Under the pieces are notes generated by a model. It did no database searches, was not told the DNA's origin, and was given only the letters and a program-made list of their open reading frames with translations. DNA of 7,060 bases from Oscillospiraceae bacterium (lineage in GTDB: Bacteria; Bacillota_A; Clostridia; Oscillospirales; JAAYXM01): contig JAFQVE010000194.1 of assembly GCA_017408185.1 (NCBI GenBank), forward strand, positions 1 through 7,060, read 5' to 3'. Shown here in pieces: positions 1-6,960 of this stretch; position 1 is the first letter of the stretch; every line of letters starts with the position of its first letter. The position numbers and the translations under genes are program-made.

Positions 1-447
1 AGTCATTTCAAGGCACAAATATTCGTCCTTTTCAAACATGCACTTCACAGGATCAGATGCAAAAAATTCACCGGGCATTACTTCTTTTGTCTTTTGACCG
101 TTAAAACAAATGGTTTTAAAATCAAAAACCCTAATGTCTGCCTGTTCATCCTCGTCGTCCATAACCGCTTCAGAAATGTTTTCGGGAAGATTGATGCTCA
201 CGCATCTGCCGATCCTTGCGCTGTGAATAGTCCAGTTTTCGCAAATCAGGTTTTTATGGCTTATTGAACCGTCGTCATAGGTGCTGTCTATAATGTTTGA
301 AAACAGAACGGAATAGTTATATTCACCGCCTGCAGAGATTTTATAAAAAACTCTTCCTGTACGAATTTCATTTTCATTCATCGCAAAATACAGCTGATTT
401 CCGCTTCCTGCATATGTGTTTGAGTTAAATTGGTCAAAATACTTCAT
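1..447 (-). CDS. Probable SGNH/GDSL-type esterase, N-terminal part (runs off left edge)
   Basis: An open frame of 149 codons reads from an ATG at 445-447 to the window edge with no stop, so the C-terminus is missing. The start is supported by AAGGAG about 7 nt upstream and an extended -10 promoter beyond it. The visible part has no signal peptide and begins MKYFDQFNSNTYAGSG. It contains stretches such as FSNIIDSTYDDGS, ENWTIHSARIG and MPGEFFASDP, ending in EYLCLEMT. From memory these resemble the beta-rich N-terminal domain that precedes the catalytic SGNH domain in clostridial GDSL-family esterases. The catalytic Ser, Asp and His blocks would lie beyond the edge, so the hydrolase call rests on this N-terminal resemblance alone. 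It is downstream of, and on the same strand as, the amidase-GDPD gene, separated by a repeat element and its own apparent promoter. Confidence 0.6.
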   Translation of the reverse strand, partial: MKYFDQFNSNTYAGSGNQLYFAMNENEIRTGRVFYKISAGGEYNYSVLFSNIIDSTYDDGSISHKNLICENWTIHSARIGRCVSINLPENISEAVMDDEDEQADIRVFDFKTICFNGQKTKEVMPGEFFASDPVKCMFEKDEYLCLEMT

Positions 448-474
448 AATGGATCTCCTTATTTTAATGAATTT

Positions 475-483
475 ATTATAACA
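475..483 (-). promoter_or_regulatory. Extended -10 promoter for the SGNH-like gene
   Basis: On the minus strand this reads TGTTATAAT, a perfect TATAAT with the TGn extension. Transcription would start near 468, about 20 nt before the ATG at 447, leaving room for the AAGGAG ribosome site. No good -35 is present at 16-18 bp, which extended -10 promoters tolerate. The expected -35 position falls on the left edge of the repeat element at 498-597. Sequence-based prediction only. Confidence 0.5.
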
Positions 484-497
484 TAAGCGTGAGCGAA

Positions 498-597
498 ATG
501 GTATAATGTTGCCATATTTTCCGGTTTCCGGCAAAGCCGGAGAGGAAAATGGCATTTTAAATCAGTATAATAACTACTTTTGTAGTTATTATACCAT
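498..597. repeat. Palindromic dispersed repeat, copy 1 (MITE-like, 100 bp)
   Basis: The element has perfect 10-bp terminal inverted repeats, ATGGTATAAT at 498-507 and ATTATACCAT at 588-597. Inside are two hairpins. Hairpin A pairs GCCATATTTTCC (511-522) with GGAAAATGGC (544-553) through a 2-nt bulge and carries a GC-rich tip, CCGGC/GCCGG (528-532 and 536-540). Hairpin B is a perfect 13-bp stem (565-577 with 582-594) closed by TTTT. A second copy lies at 2452-2547 in the same orientation, with about six substitutions and a 2-nt indel. There is no coding potential of its own; ORFs crossing it differ between the copies. The end of hairpin B and the right terminal repeat share bases, so a full-length terminal pairing and the local hairpin exclude each other. 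This could be a transposase-dependent miniature element, a REP-like palindrome or a mobile regulatory leader. I do not recognise a named family. Confidence 0.85.
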
Positions 598-627
598 ATT
601 TCTTTTTGGACTGCAATTGTTTTCCGG

Positions 628-795
628 TTATGCTGTAACCTCATTTTGTATAGTAAAGTTAAGGGGTTTTAAGAAAATTGATAGGGATGCTGCTATCTTT
701 GCAACATCCCCTCTTGTTTTATCCGTAATAATCGCCTGAAAGCCTTCCGGATAATAGATCAGATATTTGAGCCCTTCAAAAATTTTTTCTTCCAT
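628..795 (-). CDS. Small ORF of unknown function (55 aa), possible gene remnant
   Basis: Reading from ATG at 793-795 to TAA at 628-630 gives 55 codons with few rare codons. A plausible ribosome site (AAAGGGTG) lies 7 nt upstream. It begins 35 nt after the stop of the amidase-GDPD gene on the same strand, so it would be co-transcribed. The protein starts MEEKIFEGLKYLIYYPEGFQ and continues with an alpha-helical-looking segment (roughly residues 28-43), ending NEVTA. There is no signal peptide, clear membrane span or cysteine motif. The first 20 residues loosely recall the opening strand of alpha/beta hydrolases (GLKY-x-YYP-x-GF), but no catalytic region follows. It could therefore be the stub of a decayed hydrolase, a genuine small protein or non-coding. 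A stable hairpin (684-710) lies inside it, which argues mildly for a terminator or remnant. Confidence 0.35.
   Translation of the reverse strand: MEEKIFEGLKYLIYYPEGFQAIITDKTRGDVAKIAASLSIFLKPLNFTIQNEVTA
684..710. other. Hairpin, possible terminator after the amidase-GDPD gene
   Basis: GGGATGCTGC (684-693) and GCAACATCCC (701-710) form a 10-bp stem with a single non-Watson-Crick (G-U on the minus transcript) pair and a 7-nt loop. On the minus strand it lies about 120 nt past the stop at 831 and is followed by a loosely U-rich stretch (TATCAATTTTCTT). On the plus strand it is followed by CTCTTGTTTT, but no plus-strand gene precedes it. It overlaps the small ORF at 628-795, so only one of the two interpretations may be right. 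Confidence 0.35.
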
Positions 796-830
796 TTTTG
801 GTCACCCTTTCGTTGTGGACGGAAAAAGCT

Positions 831-2438
831 TTATAATACCGTTGCATTTTCTGCAACCCGGGAAATCAGATTGTAGTCATTGGTCAGGATTGTATCAATC
901 CCCATTGCGAGATATTCTCTTGCTTCGTCTTCGTCATCTGACCAGAACACATTGCAGATAATGCCGTTTTCGTGCGCTCTGTCAATCATTTCCTGATCGA
1001 ATTTTCCTTTGAAAAATTGGATTTTTTTGCAATCATACCGGATCGCCCTGTCAACCAGCTCCCGGGGAGCATCTCCGGCACCTACGCAACGGCAAATGTC
1101 GGGTGCCATCCGGCGGGCAAGCCGCAGTAAGTTGTCATTTCCGGATGTAAAGTAAACGTATTTTCTACAGTCGTATTTGTCAATCAGAGCAATTATTTTA
1201 CGCAGAGCATCAGGGTCATATTCGCATTGATTATCGACTGTTTTAATGTGAATATTCATAATGGTATGGCAAGATAATTTTTTTAGGATGTCTTCGAATT
1301 TCAGAATTTTCAGTCCTTTAAATTTTTCGCCATACTTTATACCGAAATCAAATGACAGCAGTTCTTCGTAAATATAATCATAAATGTTTCCTGTTCCGGT
1401 GCTTACCCGGTCCAGCTTTTTATCATGGCAGGAAACAATCTCACCGTCTTTAGTGACCCAAAGATCAAATTCGATCTCCTCTGCGCCCATAGCAACCGCC
1501 GCACCAAAAGCAGGCATACTGTTTTCCGGAGCAATGGTGTTAAAGCCTCTGTGTGCGCAGAACCGCGGATAAGGCATGATGTCATCCGGTCTTACAATGG
1601 CACTGCCGGCGGGACGGTATTTCCAGGGGCGGCGGCCTTTTTCAATATACTCGTAATGTGCGGCATCCGGATTTCCGAAGCCTGCAGGTTTATAATACTT
1701 TTTATGTACATCGATCTCCGCCGTAGACAGGCCTATATGGCTTTCCATATGGCAAAGGACTTCTCCCGTCGGTGCAACCACCATACTTGCACCACCGATA
1801 TTGGAATTAACGTCCATTGATACAGATGATCGGATCACATAGGTATTGGTATTGTATGCCAGAAATTGAGACATAATCTTCAATGCTTCGTGGGTATCGC
1901 TTCTTTGATGGGAGCAGGCAATGATCACATCCAAATTTTGCCTTGCAAGGTTAGGAAAAGCCTCATAGAAATAGGCATCATAGCAAATAAGGAATCCAAA
2001 GCGAATGCCTTCTATTTCGATTACGGTAGGTTCGGAAAACTCAAAAGAATAATCGCCATCGAGCTTCATCACCGATACTTCGCCGGGGGTTAAGTGCTGT
2101 TTATAATACTTCCCCGCAAGTTCGCCGTTACGGTTAAAGGCATAGGTTGTGTTTCGCGAGCCTGTTTCGGTTTCGCTTCTTGCATTTACAAAAAGCAGAG
2201 CGTTACATCTTTTCGCAGTGGCACTTGCAATTTCCAGCAATCTTTGATTGTATTTCTTTACGCTTTTTTCTGCAGCTTCCTTTGTCTTTGCTAAGCAGGG
2301 GATATCACAGGACTCAGGAAATACGATCAGGTCCATTGAACTGTCGCACTGTTCAAATAACGCTAATTGCTTTTCAAATAGCTCATCAGAACGGTTATAA
2401 TCTGTTGAATATTCCGGTTGCGCAACACATACTTTCAT
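831..2438 (-). CDS. Nitrilase-superfamily amidase fused to glycerophosphodiester phosphodiesterase (GDPD)
   Basis: This is a 535-residue two-domain enzyme, probably cytosolic as no signal peptide or membrane span is visible. Residues 1-255 form a carbon-nitrogen hydrolase domain with the full catalytic set: E42 (VFPES), K113 (YYKQHLTPGE, with the accessory E120) and C152 (LICYDAYFYE). Residues 290-535 form a GDPD TIM barrel: H296-R-G, PENS at 304-307, E323-F-D325 followed by TKDG, H338-D339, and a C-terminal ICNVFWSDD...GIDTILTND block. GDPDs split glycerophosphodiesters into glycerol 3-phosphate and an alcohol; nitrilase-family members hydrolyse amides or nitriles. Both substrates here are unknown. 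One oddity is that the usual third metal-ligand Glu (IEIK) is H397 (NIHIK). The ATG is supported by GGAGGAA 5 nt upstream. Repeat copy 2 ends at that ribosome site, and a divergent LysR gene beyond it is the likely regulator. Confidence 0.9.
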   Translation of the reverse strand: MKVCVAQPEYSTDYNRSDELFEKQLALFEQCDSSMDLIVFPESCDIPCLAKTKEAAEKSVKKYNQRLLEIASATAKRCNALLFVNARSETETGSRNTTYAFNRNGELAGKYYKQHLTPGEVSVMKLDGDYSFEFSEPTVIEIEGIRFGFLICYDAYFYEAFPNLARQNLDVIIACSHQRSDTHEALKIMSQFLAYNTNTYVIRSSVSMDVNSNIGGASMVVAPTGEVLCHMESHIGLSTAEIDVHKKYYKPAGFGNPDAAHYEYIEKGRRPWKYRPAGSAIVRPDDIMPYPRFCAHRGFNTIAPENSMPAFGAAVAMGAEEIEFDLWVTKDGEIVSCHDKKLDRVSTGTGNIYDYIYEELLSFDFGIKYGEKFKGLKILKFEDILKKLSCHTIMNIHIKTVDNQCEYDPDALRKIIALIDKYDCRKYVYFTSGNDNLLRLARRMAPDICRCVGAGDAPRELVDRAIRYDCKKIQFFKGKFDQEMIDRAHENGIICNVFWSDDEDEAREYLAMGIDTILTNDYNLISRVAENATVL

Positions 2439-2451
2439 TTAAATTCCTCCT

Positions 2452-2547
2452 GTTATAATATAGCCATATTTTCCGGTTTCCGGCAAAGCCGTAGAGGAAA
2501 ATGGCTTTAAATCAGTATAATAACTGCTTTTGCAGTTATTATACCAT
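2452..2547. repeat. Palindromic dispersed repeat, copy 2 (about 96 bp)
   Basis: This is a direct-orientation copy of the element at 498-597. Hairpin A pairs 2463-2474 with 2496-2505 around the CGGC/GCCG tip; its outermost pair is lost because G540 of copy 1 is T2492 here. Hairpin B is again a perfect 13-bp stem (2515-2527 with 2532-2544) with loop TTTT. Its second pair from the loop is G2526-C2533, where copy 1 has A576-T583, a compensatory change. The right terminal repeat ATTATACCAT (2538-2547) is intact, while the left end is altered to GTTATAAT (2452-2459), one mismatch from perfect inversion. The element sits in the divergent intergenic region and abuts the ribosome site of the amidase-GDPD gene. 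If transcription starts within or beyond it, it forms most of that gene's 5' leader. Confidence 0.85.
2538..2546 (-). promoter_or_regulatory. Possible extended -10 inside the repeat, driving the amidase-GDPD gene
   Basis: On the minus strand the right terminal repeat reads TGGTATAAT, a perfect TATAAT with TGn extension. Initiation would be near 2531, in the hairpin B loop, leaving a leader of about 90 nt that contains hairpin A before the ATG at 2438. No convincing -35 is seen 16-18 bp upstream. No better promoter for this strongly SD-equipped gene is obvious in 2439-2629. AT-rich terminal repeats can produce this motif by chance. Confidence 0.3.
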
Positions 2548-2629: not shown

Positions 2630-3487
2630 ATGAATTTAAATCGGCTGCAATATTTCTTAGAAGTTGCAGAAACAGAAAATATTACAAAAACTGCTCAAGC
2701 ACATCTGCTGCCTCCGTCTGCAATATCGGCTTCTATTAAAAAGCTTGAGCAGGATTTAGGCGTTGCGCTATTTGACAGAACACATAATAAGATAACCCTT
2801 AACGCCAAAGGAAAATACTTTGCCGCGGAGATAGGGGGAATATTTAAAAAAATAGAGGATGCAACAGCTCAAATTACTGCTCCCTCTATTGCGCTTCCCG
2901 AAATAAAAATTCTTATTCACGCAAGGTCGAAATGGATCACGGAATTGATTGTGGAATATGCTGCCGGGGAACAAAGCAACAACTTTATCATTTCCAATGA
3001 CTACGCAAACGCAAATATTGATGATTATGATATTATCATTGATGAGCCTGATGATAAATACAACCATCTGAACCATTTTGTATTGAGCGTGGAAAGAATT
3101 TGCGTTAAGGCTTCATCAAACAGTTCCTTGGTGGGGAAAGAGCTTTATTTTCAACAGTTGGAAGATGAACCGTTTATTCTTCCGTGCACAGGTAATGGTA
3201 TGCGGAAGAGGTATGAAGATGCTTGCAAACGCCACAAGATAAAAGAACGTATCATTGTAGAATGCAATGACAGGCAATGTCTGCACCAGTATGTTTCATC
3301 AGGCATAGGACTTACAATCGGTTCATATCGGTCTCTGGAGGACTCTGTCCAACAAAATTTAACTGCGCTCAAAATTTTGGACTTTGACGAAATCCAAACT
3401 GTATGCGTTTTTTACAAGAATAATGAAAAGCCGGGCTTTTATTTAAAAAACTTTTGTGACTATCTCTATTCAAAACGAATTCTATAA
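2630..3487 (+). CDS. LysR-family transcriptional regulator
   Basis: A 285-residue protein, slightly short for the family (usually about 290-310). Residues 1-60 are the canonical LysR winged helix-turn-helix: LNRLQYFLEVAETENITKTA, then PSAISASIKKLEQDLGVALF and the DRTHNKITLNAKG wing. A helical linker covers roughly residues 62-85, and an effector-binding domain of periplasmic-binding-protein type follows to the end. Typical late elements are visible, such as VSSGIGLTIG with C-terminal helix KNFCDYLYSKRIL. The ATG is chosen because AAGGAGGG lies 9 nt upstream and the HTH begins directly after it. It is transcribed away from the amidase-GDPD gene, the classic LysR arrangement in which the regulator controls its divergent neighbour and often itself. 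The inducer cannot be read from sequence, and no terminator is obvious after the stop. Confidence 0.92.
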   Translation: MNLNRLQYFLEVAETENITKTAQAHLLPPSAISASIKKLEQDLGVALFDRTHNKITLNAKGKYFAAEIGGIFKKIEDATAQITAPSIALPEIKILIHARSKWITELIVEYAAGEQSNNFIISNDYANANIDDYDIIIDEPDDKYNHLNHFVLSVERICVKASSNSSLVGKELYFQQLEDEPFILPCTGNGMRKRYEDACKRHKIKERIIVECNDRQCLHQYVSSGIGLTIGSYRSLEDSVQQNLTALKILDFDEIQTVCVFYKNNEKPGFYLKNFCDYLYSKRIL

Positions 3488-3571: not shown

Positions 3572-4267
3572 GTGAAAAACAATATGGATTTTCCGCGCAC
3601 CTTGTCTCTTTTACGCAGAGAAAAAAACTTAAGTCAACGCAAGGTTGCAAAAGAGCTTGGGGTATCTCAGGCGGTGCTTTCGCACTATGAAAACGGTCTG
3701 CGTGAGCCGGGGCTTGAATTTGTTGCAAGAGTAGCGGATTATTATAAGGTGTCGGCAGATTTTCTGCTCGGCAGAACAATGTCACGAGAGGATTACACAA
3801 TTACCGCAGAGGATTTGCCCGATAGCTCTGAGGATAAGGACAATGTTCTCCGCGGCAGCATGATGGCAACGCTTGCAAAAAAGCTTGTTATAAATTCGCT
3901 GAGCATAATTTTTGATATTGTCGGTAAATCAAAGAACAAGGAGCTTATCACGGAAACTGCGGCGTTTTTCAATCTTGCGGTGTATAAGGTGTTCCGTTCG
4001 CTGTACTCGGCGGATAAGGAGAGCAGTGAGGATATCTTCTCCGTTGATGAGCGAATCTGGAGTGAGCTTACGAATGCCGAAATGTCGTTTGCCGCGATGA
4101 ATATAAAGCGCGAAGCAGAGGGGATAACGGAAGCGAAAGATAAAAAGAGTGAGCTTCCGTCGGTTTCACAGGAGGATATTTCCGCAGAATATCCGGCACT
4201 TTTCCAGTCGCTTTTGTCGGTGCTTCAGTCGGTCGGCAAACGTCTCGGCGAAAGACTTGATAAATAA
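3572..4267 (+). CDS. XRE-family helix-turn-helix regulator
   Basis: A 231-residue protein starting at GTG 3572. GGAGGGG lies 5 nt upstream, whereas the in-frame ATG at 3584 would be 17 nt away, so GTG is preferred. Residues 10-67 form a Cro/CI-type HTH: LSLLRREKNLSQRKVAKELG, then VSQAVLSHYENGLREPGLEF and a DYYKVSADFLLGR closing helix. The recognition helix is about residues 32-41. Residues 75-92 are an acidic linker. The remaining part (about 95-231) is mostly helical, with a hydrophobic segment around 103-117, and ends in a basic SVLQSVGKRLGERLDK tail. I recognise no sensor domain in it. It converges on potD across a shared terminator. Control of the polyamine operon is possible but unproven, because that operon's promoter is outside the window. 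Confidence 0.88.
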   Translation: MKNNMDFPRTLSLLRREKNLSQRKVAKELGVSQAVLSHYENGLREPGLEFVARVADYYKVSADFLLGRTMSREDYTITAEDLPDSSEDKDNVLRGSMMATLAKKLVINSLSIIFDIVGKSKNKELITETAAFFNLAVYKVFRSLYSADKESSEDIFSVDERIWSELTNAEMSFAAMNIKREAEGITEAKDKKSELPSVSQEDISAEYPALFQSLLSVLQSVGKRLGERLDK

Positions 4268-4273
4268 TATTTT

Positions 4274-4297
4274 AAGGGGTTCGAAAGAACCCCTTTT
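4274..4297. terminator. Shared bidirectional hairpin terminator (XRE gene / pot operon)
   Basis: AAGGGGTTC (4274-4282) pairs perfectly with GAACCCCTT (4287-4295) around a GAAA tetraloop. It lies 6 nt past the XRE stop and 6 nt past the potD stop on the other strand. On the plus strand it is followed by TTGTATTTAT, a usable U-tract. On the minus strand the trailing sequence (AAAATATTATTT) is weaker. It separates the two convergent units. Confidence 0.85.
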
Positions 4298-4301
4298 GTA
4301 T

Positions 4302-5333
4302 TTATACTCCGATTGAGGTTTTAATCTCTGTCCAGAGCTCATCATAGATTTTTGTTTTGTCGCCGAGTGAGGAGAAGATTTCAAGGTCATACTTTGTTAT
4401 ATCAGGATATGCCGTTGGGTCTTTTCCCGCTTCTCCCATAAGCTCACGTGCGGGCGTGCTCGGGGAAGAATAGCCAATGTATTCCGCATTCTTTGCTGCG
4501 ATATCGGCACGGCACATAAAGTTTATAAACTGCTCGGCACCGTCTTTGTTCTCGCAGCTTGCGGGGATACACATAGAATCAAAGAAGATGTTTGAGCCCT
4601 CGGACGGGATAACGTATTCAAGGTCCGGATTTTCGCCCTTGCAGTAAACTGCATCGCCTGCATATACGAGAGCAAGCGCGGCCTCGCCGCCGATCATTTT
4701 ATCCTTTACCTCGTCAACAACCCATGTGAGAACGAGCGGGCTTTGATCAATAAGCTTCTGCTTTGCTGCCTGGAGAGCAGCGGCGTCGGTTGTGTTCAGG
4801 CTGTGGCCGAGATATTTAAGCGTAATGCCGATAGCATCGCGCTGGCTGTTCATCATAATGATGTTATCCTTGTATTTCTCATCCCAGAGCGCGCCCCAGC
4901 TTGTCGGCGCTTCATCTACCATAGTTTTGTTATAGAGAATGCCGACCGTTCCCCAGGTATAGGGTACGGAATACTTGTTATCCTTGTCAAATGACAGGTT
5001 TTTATATTCTGCATCAATATTGCCGTAATTTGTGATTTTGCTCATATCAATCTCGGAGAGAAGATTTTCAGCAATCATACGCTCAATCATATAATCCGAC
5101 GGGATGATAACGTCATATGAGTTGTTTGAATTTTTTATTTTCGTGTACATATCCTCATTTGTCTCAAACATTTCATATATAACGCGCATACCGCTTTCTT
5201 CTTCGAATTGGTCGATTACGCCGGGCGCGATATAGTCACCCCAGTTGTACACCTTTACGACCGGTCTGTCGTCGCCGCAGGATGAAAAGAGCAGGCAGAG
5301 CACTGCAGAAAGAGCCAAAACAATTTTTTTCAT
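4302..5333 (-). CDS. potD: Spermidine/putrescine ABC transporter substrate-binding lipoprotein
   Basis: A 343-residue extracytoplasmic binding protein, close to E. coli PotD (348). Residues 1-18 are a lipoprotein signal peptide (KK, then a hydrophobic core), with lipobox FSSC and lipidation expected at C19. The mature protein opens KVYNWGDYI, the PotD hallmark. By alignment from memory with E. coli PotD, polyamine-contacting positions are kept as W31, Y34, S79, Y81, D252 and Y288. Differences are an NSQRD block (162-166) where E. coli has DDARE, and Y224 in place of a binding-site Trp. It binds polyamine outside the cell and delivers it to PotB/PotC. It is the last gene of the operon, starting in a TAATG overlap (1 nt) with potC, with AGGAG 12 nt upstream inside potC. 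The terminator follows at once. Spermidine versus putrescine preference cannot be decided here. Confidence 0.95.
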   Translation of the reverse strand: MKKIVLALSAVLCLLFSSCGDDRPVVKVYNWGDYIAPGVIDQFEEESGMRVIYEMFETNEDMYTKIKNSNNSYDVIIPSDYMIERMIAENLLSEIDMSKITNYGNIDAEYKNLSFDKDNKYSVPYTWGTVGILYNKTMVDEAPTSWGALWDEKYKDNIIMMNSQRDAIGITLKYLGHSLNTTDAAALQAAKQKLIDQSPLVLTWVVDEVKDKMIGGEAALALVYAGDAVYCKGENPDLEYVIPSEGSNIFFDSMCIPASCENKDGAEQFINFMCRADIAAKNAEYIGYSSPSTPARELMGEAGKDPTAYPDITKYDLEIFSSLGDKTKIYDELWTEIKTSIGV

Positions 5334-6127
5334 TATATTCTCATACTCCTTTTTGATTTATTGTGGTCTTTTTTTGCCGCGCCGACATTCGCAACAATAA
5401 GGATTATCAGAATTGCGGCAAACATTATGGTTGAAAGCGCGTTAATTTCGGGTTTTATTCCGCGCTTTGCCATCGTGTAGATTGAAATTGAGAGGTTGCT
5501 CACGCCGTTGCCGGTGGTGAAAAAGCTGATGATAAAATCATCAATCGACATTGTAAGCGAAAGAAGAAATCCCGTAAACACACCGGGCAGAAGCTCGGGA
5601 AACATTATCCGCCAGAAGGACTGTGTGGGTGTACACCCGAGATCCTGCGCCGCATCGTATAAGCTCCAGTCAAGCTGGCGCGCTTTTGGCAATACCGCGA
5701 GGATAACATACGGAATACAGAAGGTGATGTGAGAGAGAAGCATCGTGAAGAAACCAAGGTCAAGTCCCATAAGGGTAAAGAGAAGCATCAGAGAGACCCC
5801 GGTTACGATTTCTGCATTGAGCATCGGAATATATGCAACGGACAGAATCAGCGTGCTGCCGCCGCCTTTTTTTCTGGCAAGACCGTACGCTGCCATAGAA
5901 CCGATGATTGTTGCGATAAGTGCAGCGAGAAAGCCGCACAGAAGCGTGGTATAAAGCGAGGACATAAGAGCGTCATTTGAGAACAGCTGGCGGTACCAGT
6001 CAAGCGTAAACCCCTGCCAGCTTGCGCGGGATTTGGATGCATTGAACGAGAACACCATAAGGACGGCTATCGGGGCATACAAAAACGCGAGGACGAGACC
6101 GATATAGCATTTTGAAAGCTTTTTCAT
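5333..6127 (-). CDS. potC: Polyamine ABC transporter permease, second subunit
   Basis: A 264-residue inner-membrane permease, a normal PotC length. About six membrane segments are visible, around residues 8-28, 58-80, 93-118, 125-147, 182-203 and 232-250. The cytoplasmic EAA-like coupling loop, which docks on PotA, is at about 158-178 (YDAAQDLGCTPTQSFWRIMFP). The PotC signature region SIDDFIISFFTTG follows at 194-206. It pairs with PotB to form the channel that accepts polyamine from PotD. The ATG overlaps the potB stop by 4 nt (ATGA), indicating translational coupling; GGAGG lies 12 nt upstream within potB. The C-terminus is short and very basic (KKDHNKSKRSMRI). Confidence 0.95.
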   Translation of the reverse strand: MKKLSKCYIGLVLAFLYAPIAVLMVFSFNASKSRASWQGFTLDWYRQLFSNDALMSSLYTTLLCGFLAALIATIIGSMAAYGLARKKGGGSTLILSVAYIPMLNAEIVTGVSLMLLFTLMGLDLGFFTMLLSHITFCIPYVILAVLPKARQLDWSLYDAAQDLGCTPTQSFWRIMFPELLPGVFTGFLLSLTMSIDDFIISFFTTGNGVSNLSISIYTMAKRGIKPEINALSTIMFAAILIILIVANVGAAKKDHNKSKRSMRI

Positions 6128-6960
6128 CGAAGTATTCTACCTCCGTTTCCGGTTCCCGACTCAACATCGCCGCGGTTTATAAAGTACATAAAGACAAGAA
6201 CAATAACCATTATAACGACGCTGAGAGCGCTTCCGAAGTGCCAGTCGTTCACAACGCGGAATTGCTGTTCGATAACATCGCCGATAAGGGGAACCTTGCC
6301 GCCGCCCATAAGCTGGGAGATTACAAAGGTTGTAACGCTTGGCACAAAAACCATCGAAACTCCCGATAAAATCCCCGGTACGGAGAAGGGGAGAGTGACG
6401 CGTAAAAAAGCCTGAAAGGGATTTGCTCCGAGGTCTGCCGCCGCTTCAAGATGGCTTTCGTCAAGCTTTAAGAGCGTTATGTAAATCGGCATAATCATAA
6501 ACGGAAGATAATTATATACCGTGCCGAGGATAACGGCGCCCTCGTTGTAGAGAAAGCGAACCTTCGGCAGACCGAGAGACGCCAAAACCGTGTTTATGAT
6601 TCCCGTGTTTTCGAGAATGGAAAGCCATGAATATGTGCGGAGAAGAAAGTTCATCCACATAGGAAGAAGCATAAGAATCACGATGATAAATTTTGCACGT
6701 GAGCGGCTTCTTGCCAGAATGTATGCGGCGGGGTAGCCGCAAAGGATGCACACGAGTGTGGATATAATTGCAATCTTGAAGCTTTTCAGCACCACTCCGA
6801 GATACATGGGGTCTGCAAGGCGCGAAAAACCTTCAAGGGAAAATTCCGTACCCGCGCCGCCTGCGCGCGTAAACGCAAAATAAATTACGATGGCAAGCGG
6901 GAAAAGCACGAACACCGCCGTCCACACATACAGCGGAATCAAGCAAGCATTTTTTTTCAA
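6124..6960 (-). CDS. potB: Polyamine ABC transporter permease, first subunit (TTG start)
   Basis: A 278-residue membrane protein of the binding-protein-dependent permease family, normal PotB length. Hydrophobic segments are at about 10-30, 60-83, 90-110, 140-163, 193-215 and 245-262. The EAA coupling loop is LEAAADLGANPFQAFLRVTLP (about 171-191). MWMNFLLRTYSWLSIL (101-116) is characteristic of PotB. The only suitable start is TTG (6958-6960), with GGAGG 7 nt upstream. The nearby ATG is out of frame, and the first residues (KKNACLIPLYVWT) are typical for the family. The start overlaps the potA stop by 4 nt (TTGA), the same geometry as the ATGA overlap of potB-potC, so coupled translation is likely. 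It forms the translocation path with PotC. Confidence 0.94.
   Translation of the reverse strand: MKKNACLIPLYVWTAVFVLFPLAIVIYFAFTRAGGAGTEFSLEGFSRLADPMYLGVVLKSFKIAIISTLVCILCGYPAAYILARSRSRAKFIIVILMLLPMWMNFLLRTYSWLSILENTGIINTVLASLGLPKVRFLYNEGAVILGTVYNYLPFMIMPIYITLLKLDESHLEAAADLGANPFQAFLRVTLPFSVPGILSGVSMVFVPSVTTFVISQLMGGGKVPLIGDVIEQQFRVVNDWHFGSALSVVIMVIVLVFMYFINRGDVESGTGNGGRILR

Follow-up and report, generated by a model that had tools for sequence, protein, structure and literature searches.

Two copies of a three-hairpin element

The window analysed here, a whole stretch of 7,060 nt of contig JAFQVE010000194.1 from an Oscillospiraceae bacterium, carries two near-identical copies of a short palindromic element, each lying next to the start of a minus-strand gene (Table 1). 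The full unit consists, in this order, of an outer left hairpin (H0, TTATACCAT-loop-ATGGTATAA), an imperfect, GC-tipped core hairpin (H1) and an AT-rich outer right hairpin (H2) ending in TATTATACCA. We consider it highly probable that both copies are members of a family of short (mostly 110-130 nt), non-autonomous mobile DNA elements spread across the host's order of Clostridia, in which exchangeable H0 and H2 hairpins surround a conserved, strand-specific H1.

The initial annotation had placed the two copies at 498-597 and 2452-2547, in the same orientation, six substitutions and one 2-nt indel apart and 50 and 13 nt from the gene starts at 447 and 2438, and all of this holds. Its anatomy of two hairpins between terminal inverted repeats was right as to the hairpins and wrong at the left boundary: what had been read as the left repeat is one arm (498-507) of the third hairpin, H0. 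Because copies in the nearest genome compared (G001) show this hairpin, copy 1 is now drawn at about 474-597. Compared with the same locus in that genome (L003), 37 bp are missing from copy 2, among them the left arm of H0. The ends of the window's type, called type A below, are direct TATTATACCA-like repeats that lie inside hairpins. Folded as single-stranded DNA (plus strand), the two copies reach z-scores of -8.56 and -7.42, and none of 200 shuffles folds as well.

Table 1. Coordinates of the elements and genes in the window
Feature	Position	Strand	Remarks
Copy 1, complete three-hairpin element (type A)	474-597	+	model R1, 108.1 bits at 476-596
H0 of copy 1, outer left hairpin	475-507	+	arm 475-484 ATTATAACAT, loop, arm 498-507 ATGGTATAAT
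Putative extended -10-like TGTTATAAT	475-483	-	would read outward (leftward) to the gene starting at 447
Conserved core hairpin (H1) in copy 1	511-553	+	model R2, 64.9 bits (510-554), against 10.5 bits on the minus strand
H2 of copy 1, outer right hairpin (565-594), with CAT	565-597	+	
Copy 2, left-truncated, without left arm of H0	2452-2547	+	model R1, 81.0 bits
H1 of copy 2	2463-2505	+	model R2, 52.5 bits at 2462-2506
H2 of copy 2 (2515-2544) plus CAT	2515-2547	+	
Gene beside copy 1	1-447	-	start 447, AAGGAG at 455-460; runs off the window; no Pfam family
CN_hydrolase-GDPD fusion gene beside copy 2	831-2438	-	
LysR-type regulator gene	2630-3487	+	divergent from 831-2438; copy 2 in between

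Dispersal and insertion sites

The nearest genome, which has 55% of sampled words in common with the window, contains both window loci with flanks of about 98% identity and, in addition, two full copies (L002, L004), one copy cut at a contig end (L005) and one right-half remnant (L006). These copies at other loci rule out a merely local duplication. A BLAST search with one copy gave matches in 8 of 59 relatives, and at E<=1e-3 the covariance model R1, trained on type A copies, matched 48 of the 295 genomes searched in the order, from 30 of 148 genera, which bears out the dispersed family that had been predicted from two copies; as at most 12 candidates were scored per genome, copy numbers from this search are lower bounds. 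A second model, built on H1 (R2), was run on 391 genomes sampled from the class and matched six: four clearly and one doubtfully (G096) within the host's order, and one (G367) beyond it. The sensitivity of R2 is limited (it missed G038, G072, G086 and G098, all matched by R1), and its weakest class match, G096 at 26 bits, bears no likeness to H1. A letter-pattern scan of named genomes yielded at least 120 stretches from at least 69 assemblies, counted by accession prefix; among the matches listed, the titles name Oscillospiraceae, Ruminococcaceae, Oscillibacter, Pseudoflavonifractor, Angelakisella, Ruminococcus and unplaced Clostridia, and gut or rumen is the source of many. Another type of unit, type B (TATTACTTCCGAA...TTCGGAAATAATA), gave 74, 54 and 51 matches, copies and fragments taken together, in the genomes G296, G297 and G298, with 13 full-length copies of 98-100% identity in G296, and also occurs in G304. 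The exact H1 pattern was absent from the viral contigs searched, copy 1 had no match among phages, and one type B copy used as query had none among plasmids.

Sites empty in relatives, which the initial annotation had suggested looking for, were found for both types. For seven type A loci the flanks were joined and searched in five genomes of a single genus, and six of these loci gave sites that are empty in two or three congeners; the seventh (L202) had no usable match elsewhere among the genomes queried. A full TATTATA stands in at least one empty site at four loci (L206, L034, L211, L212), L205 has GTATACCA, and L014, of which a partial copy is kept in a fourth species (G055), has CTATACCA or only CCATACCA. 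When filled, the sites have such a motif at either end of the unit. At three of the six loci (L206, L034, L211) the motif on the right is spelled as in the target and that on the left pairs with the H0 of the element itself, so that the two flanking repeats differ by letters there while the site motif is still present on both sides. Read on the other strand, the type A site is TGnTATAATA, the extended -10 box.

For type B, eleven loci of G296 were queried (five, then six), and five are empty in the relative G304. Exactly one TA is found in the empty site and a TA on both sides of the filled one at L077, L259, L280 and L274; the fifth, L132, deviates by a single A within a run of A's. At the type B copy L143 a duplication of 5 bp had been suspected, which the other type B copies did not bear out. 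Units are thus inserted at precise points, TATTATA-like sites for type A and TA for type B, and since filled and empty sites show insertion, the family is a non-autonomous mobile element, comparable in effect to miniature inverted-repeat transposable elements (MITEs) and equipped with an unusual conserved core. Like MITEs it is short, non-coding, mostly intergenic and present in many copies. At these sites, insertion 3' of a motif without duplication looks the same as duplication within TATTATA or TA. The empty sites would represent the older state.

Core hairpin, outer hairpins and gene context

H1 is marked by two bulges, AT and GG, and by a T.G wobble, set between stems that covary. Among 30 copies obtained from BLAST and R1 hits and picked without the H1 letter pattern, 98 cells are changed on both sides of a pair, against 29.2 after shuffling (reached in none of 500 shuffles) and at most 16 in slid controls, and such changes affect 13 of the 18 pairs. 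In the same copies the T.G pair is kept in 29 of 30, the adjacent T-A in 27 and one C-G in all 30, and the AT bulge, the GG bulge and GA are kept in 28, 29 and 29 of 30, respectively, as cut by a script that used GG(T/C)T as its anchor and gave preference to AT and GA. Four of the 25 R1 hits L049-L073 were omitted (L068, which is the same place as L017; L065, with GGTA in place of GGTT; L071, with no such core; and L072, in which the stem below H1 is replaced), and the intact distant copy L019 also stands outside the 30. Loci found by letter pattern have AT, GG and GA fixed by the search and are therefore excluded from claims on the conservation of these dinucleotides. In the copy from G367, outside the order, the outer hairpins are those of type A and the H1 stems are entirely different, yet AT, GGTT and GA are kept.

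The dominant tetraloop at the tip of H1 is GNNA in 25 of 36 genomes and the dominant triloop GNA in 13 of 19; GNRA makes up 16 of the 25 GNNA loops (p=0.23). In 1997, Yoshizawa and colleagues reportedly obtained very stable DNA mini-hairpins from GNA loops, and GNNA loops follow a like rule of stable DNA hairpins. H1 would be recognised as a folded single strand, and because of the GNA and GNNA loops at its tip we hold DNA to be somewhat more likely than RNA.

While H1 is common to the lineages, H0 and H2 vary between them: besides types A and B, further types are based on GTAAACGAAA or on TGACCATTCC with AAGTTTGGAAG, among others. A hairpin scoring at least 9 is found left of H1 in 53 of 84 copies and right of it in 70 of 84, compared with 5.5% of random windows. 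Covariation extends over the whole element, since in 19 copies 92.8% of cells are paired and 57 are changed on both sides, against 16.1 after shuffling (reached in none of 500) and no more than 10 in slid controls. Type B ends in TTAYTTCCGAA, inverted, with TA on each flank; as type B has ordinary inverted termini and type A lacks them, a single mobiliser for types A and B is unproven. In arrays of either type, neighbouring units have an outer hairpin in common, and at one orthologous locus in four species the number of units is 2, 2, 3 and 1.

A number of departures from the full unit were also seen. Type B copies L313-L325 (G296, G297, G298) end near ATCAA just past H1 and have no H2; those in G297 and G298 may be a second mobile form or a product of decay. 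Three H1 variants of G297 (L326, L327, L328) are longer by about 75 nt, the added stretch forming two hairpins and lying at roughly one position within H1, and at L216 a lone H0 with neither H1 nor H2 lies at about 1512-1544. A type A locus of G037 has several hundred extra, partly palindromic bases near H2 that are absent in G014 (L209 vs L217). A scan of loci L253-L350 for type B ends without H1 gave six places, including at least one lone end hairpin (L316, near 535). In flanks from G296 and G304, some type B copies adjoin further short repeats, of at least two kinds and each with tens of matches.

The gene context was determined for 77 of 88 matches, after dropping four at contig or locus edges, three opposite-strand echoes and four second or weak matches in a locus. 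Only five of the 77 copies lie inside a called open reading frame (ORF); the neighbouring genes are divergent in 19 cases, convergent in 16 (the copy thus lying between two gene 3' ends), co-directional in 26 and incomplete in 16. A ribosome-binding site followed by a start codon within 120 nt outward was found at 22 of 41 left and 8 of 41 right ends of type A and in 32 of 235 random stretches (left vs right p=0.003, with orthologous copies counted separately), and outward of the left end in four of the six type A loci with empty sites (not L014 and L211). Crude ORF calls, made on 47 type A copies of which four inside called ORFs were dropped, place a gene start as left neighbour in 30 of 39 cases (p=0.001) and as right neighbour in 23 of 42 (p=0.64), tandem and orthologous copies again being counted separately; these calls contradict or fail to help at L211, L206, L212 and L014. 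The location just upstream of genes noted for the two window copies therefore stands as a bias of the type A left end and falls as a rule of the whole family. Orientation agrees with local GC skew in 28 of 36 type B copies (p=0.001), 19 of 54 type A copies (p=0.04), 25 of 72 others (p=0.013) and 72 of 162 overall; there is no common rule, and gene orientation may explain these leanings.

Candidate modes of mobilisation

A number of observations weigh against the mobile family outlined above. Type A has no ordinary inverted termini, in contrast to type B. In the window's own genus R1 matched G001 alone of five genomes, a patchy occurrence. The empty sites could partly be clean deletions. No mobilising enzyme emerged from the searches: DDE_3 is absent from all nine carriers searched, including G304 (IS5, IS30 and other transposase families were not searched), Y1_Tnp is absent from 15 of 23 genomes (5 of 7 and 10 of 16), including G296, G297, G298 and G304, the first set of seven containing one genome (G026) with only a weak H2-like match, and no recurrent gene adjoins the copies among 752 clustered ORFs of 120 named loci, where the largest cluster (8 loci) looks by eye like an ABC transporter. 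An IS630 mobiliser was rejected on the DDE_3 result in these nine carriers, and membership in IS200/IS605 on that for Y1_Tnp in the 23 genomes together with the lack of any H1 match in 12 Y1 loci.

An ordinary MITE of a DDE transposase (IS630/Tc1-mariner-like, or a relative of IS5 or IS30) is well conceivable, if short of an even chance. The outer hairpins would then be palindromic terminal repeats, TA the target duplication and H1 a passenger, in agreement with the inverted, TA-flanked ends of type B, the single TA in four of its five empty sites and a size like that of the pneumococcal RUP element, which has a link to IS630. The lack of DDE_3 in the carriers, the absence of inverted termini and the longer target in type A speak against it, and bulges and wobble would hardly survive in a passenger whose stems are replaced. 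Possible as well, if more doubtful, is movement as folded single-stranded DNA like that of IS200/IS605 and repetitive extragenic palindromic (REP) elements, in which a nuclease would recognise the imperfect hairpins and cut 3' of TATTATA or TA, with no true duplication and with the cut guided by the site-complementary arms of H0 and H2. Such a process would account for bulges kept on one strand, for the GNNA and GNA loops, for the three type A loci whose right repeat has target letters and whose left one has letters of H0, and for the GC-skew preference of type B; it is at odds with the missing Y1_Tnp in most genomes, with the opposite leaning of type A and the other types, which may mirror gene orientation, and with the lack of a GTAG/GTGG foot.

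We think it unlikely that H1 or the whole element acts as RNA, either as a regulatory leader or as a guide for an enzyme acting in trans. The covariation with a kept U.G wobble would suit an RNA, and the -10-like sequence remaining at the right end of type A units could drive their transcription, but the contexts are mixed, with many copies between two gene 3' ends, the third loop position is not significantly purine and no Rfam family was matched. A fixed, immobile regulatory site, such as an operator of the LysR and CN_hydrolase-GDPD genes, would be in keeping with the position of copy 2 in the divergent region between these two genes; given copies beside unrelated genes, and contradicted by the sites that are empty in relatives, it is very improbable.

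A transposase supplied in trans would act on the ends and cut at TA or beside TATTATA. Carrying TATTATACCA at the left end and preferring -10-like sites, type A may restore a -10 box to the adjoining gene. A more specific picture, which we offer tentatively and on balance doubt, would be a modular parasite of an undiscovered transposition system: a likewise undiscovered enzyme would recognise the folded single-stranded core by its two dinucleotide bulges and T.G pair and not by its stem letters, the outer hairpins would set the target by pairing, and the lineage in the window would have the -10 box as its target, rebuilding it upon insertion so that genes are not silenced. In small interspersed repeats it is usually the transposase-recognised ends that are kept, with the middle free to drift; in this family the shape of the middle is preserved and the ends are swapped, a pattern pointing to a recognition step explained by neither of the two transposase families tested. 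By preferring -10-like sites that face gene starts, type A would be a natural agent of promoter rewiring in common gut bacteria, and model R2 provides a handle for finding the mobilising enzyme.

The initial annotation had recognised no named family, and none was found: Rfam 15 gave no match above the gathering score for the window and eight loci, the only hits lying far below it, which rules out a known RNA family, and no description turned up in the open PMC literature, with subscription papers and ISfinder outside the search. Within the literature and Rfam searched, the family is apparently undescribed. In the relevant passages of a stem-loop survey of 40 genomes, Clostridia are represented by two Clostridium species (PMC2267715), and the accessible part of the text on GTAG- and CGTC-tagged repeats contains no Clostridi-, Firmicutes, Ruminococc- or Faecalibact- (PMC3733652).

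As for the suggested likeness to a MITE or a REP-type element, the former is upheld by precise insertions and empty sites, and the latter fails. The units are similar to TA-flanked MITEs such as pneumococcal RUP, as far as these are defined in passages of PMC3049150, in being short, intergenic, palindromic and gene-less, and type B also in its inverted ends and TA; they are unlike them in the absence of DDE_3, in the TATTATA-like sites and missing inverted termini of type A, and in a core that is kept across the order while the ends vary. With REP elements and bacterial interspersed mosaic elements (BIMEs) and their RAYT transposase (TnpA-REP; excerpts of PMC6006769) they share imperfect, bulged intergenic hairpins, single or clustered. 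None of 124 copies, however, has GTAG or GTGG within 6 nt of the foot of H1 (the tally covers H1 only, not H0 and H2), which together with the Y1 absence rules out REP membership, and a three-hairpin unit with a precise site sets the family further apart. Of IS200/IS605 and PATEs, as presented in parts of PMC6006769 and PMC7290912, the end hairpins and the arms complementary to the site are reminiscent, and insertion 3' of a fixed short motif would fit; the missing Y1 and the conserved central hairpin differ. BOX elements of streptococci (sections of PMC3049150) are likewise modular, dispersed and able to grow by internal units, but here the middle is constant, the ends vary and array neighbours have an outer hairpin in common, a distinction drawn from descriptions and not from sequence comparison.

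The gene beside copy 1 had been called SGNH-like, a label for which Pfam gave no match in the part inside the window. Next to copy 2, CN_hydrolase and GDPD domains are joined in one protein (831-2438) that is divergent from the LysR gene. Further downstream, 3572-6960 encodes an XRE-type regulator followed, on the opposite strand, by a solute-binding protein and two permeases, which we take to resemble a polyamine transporter.

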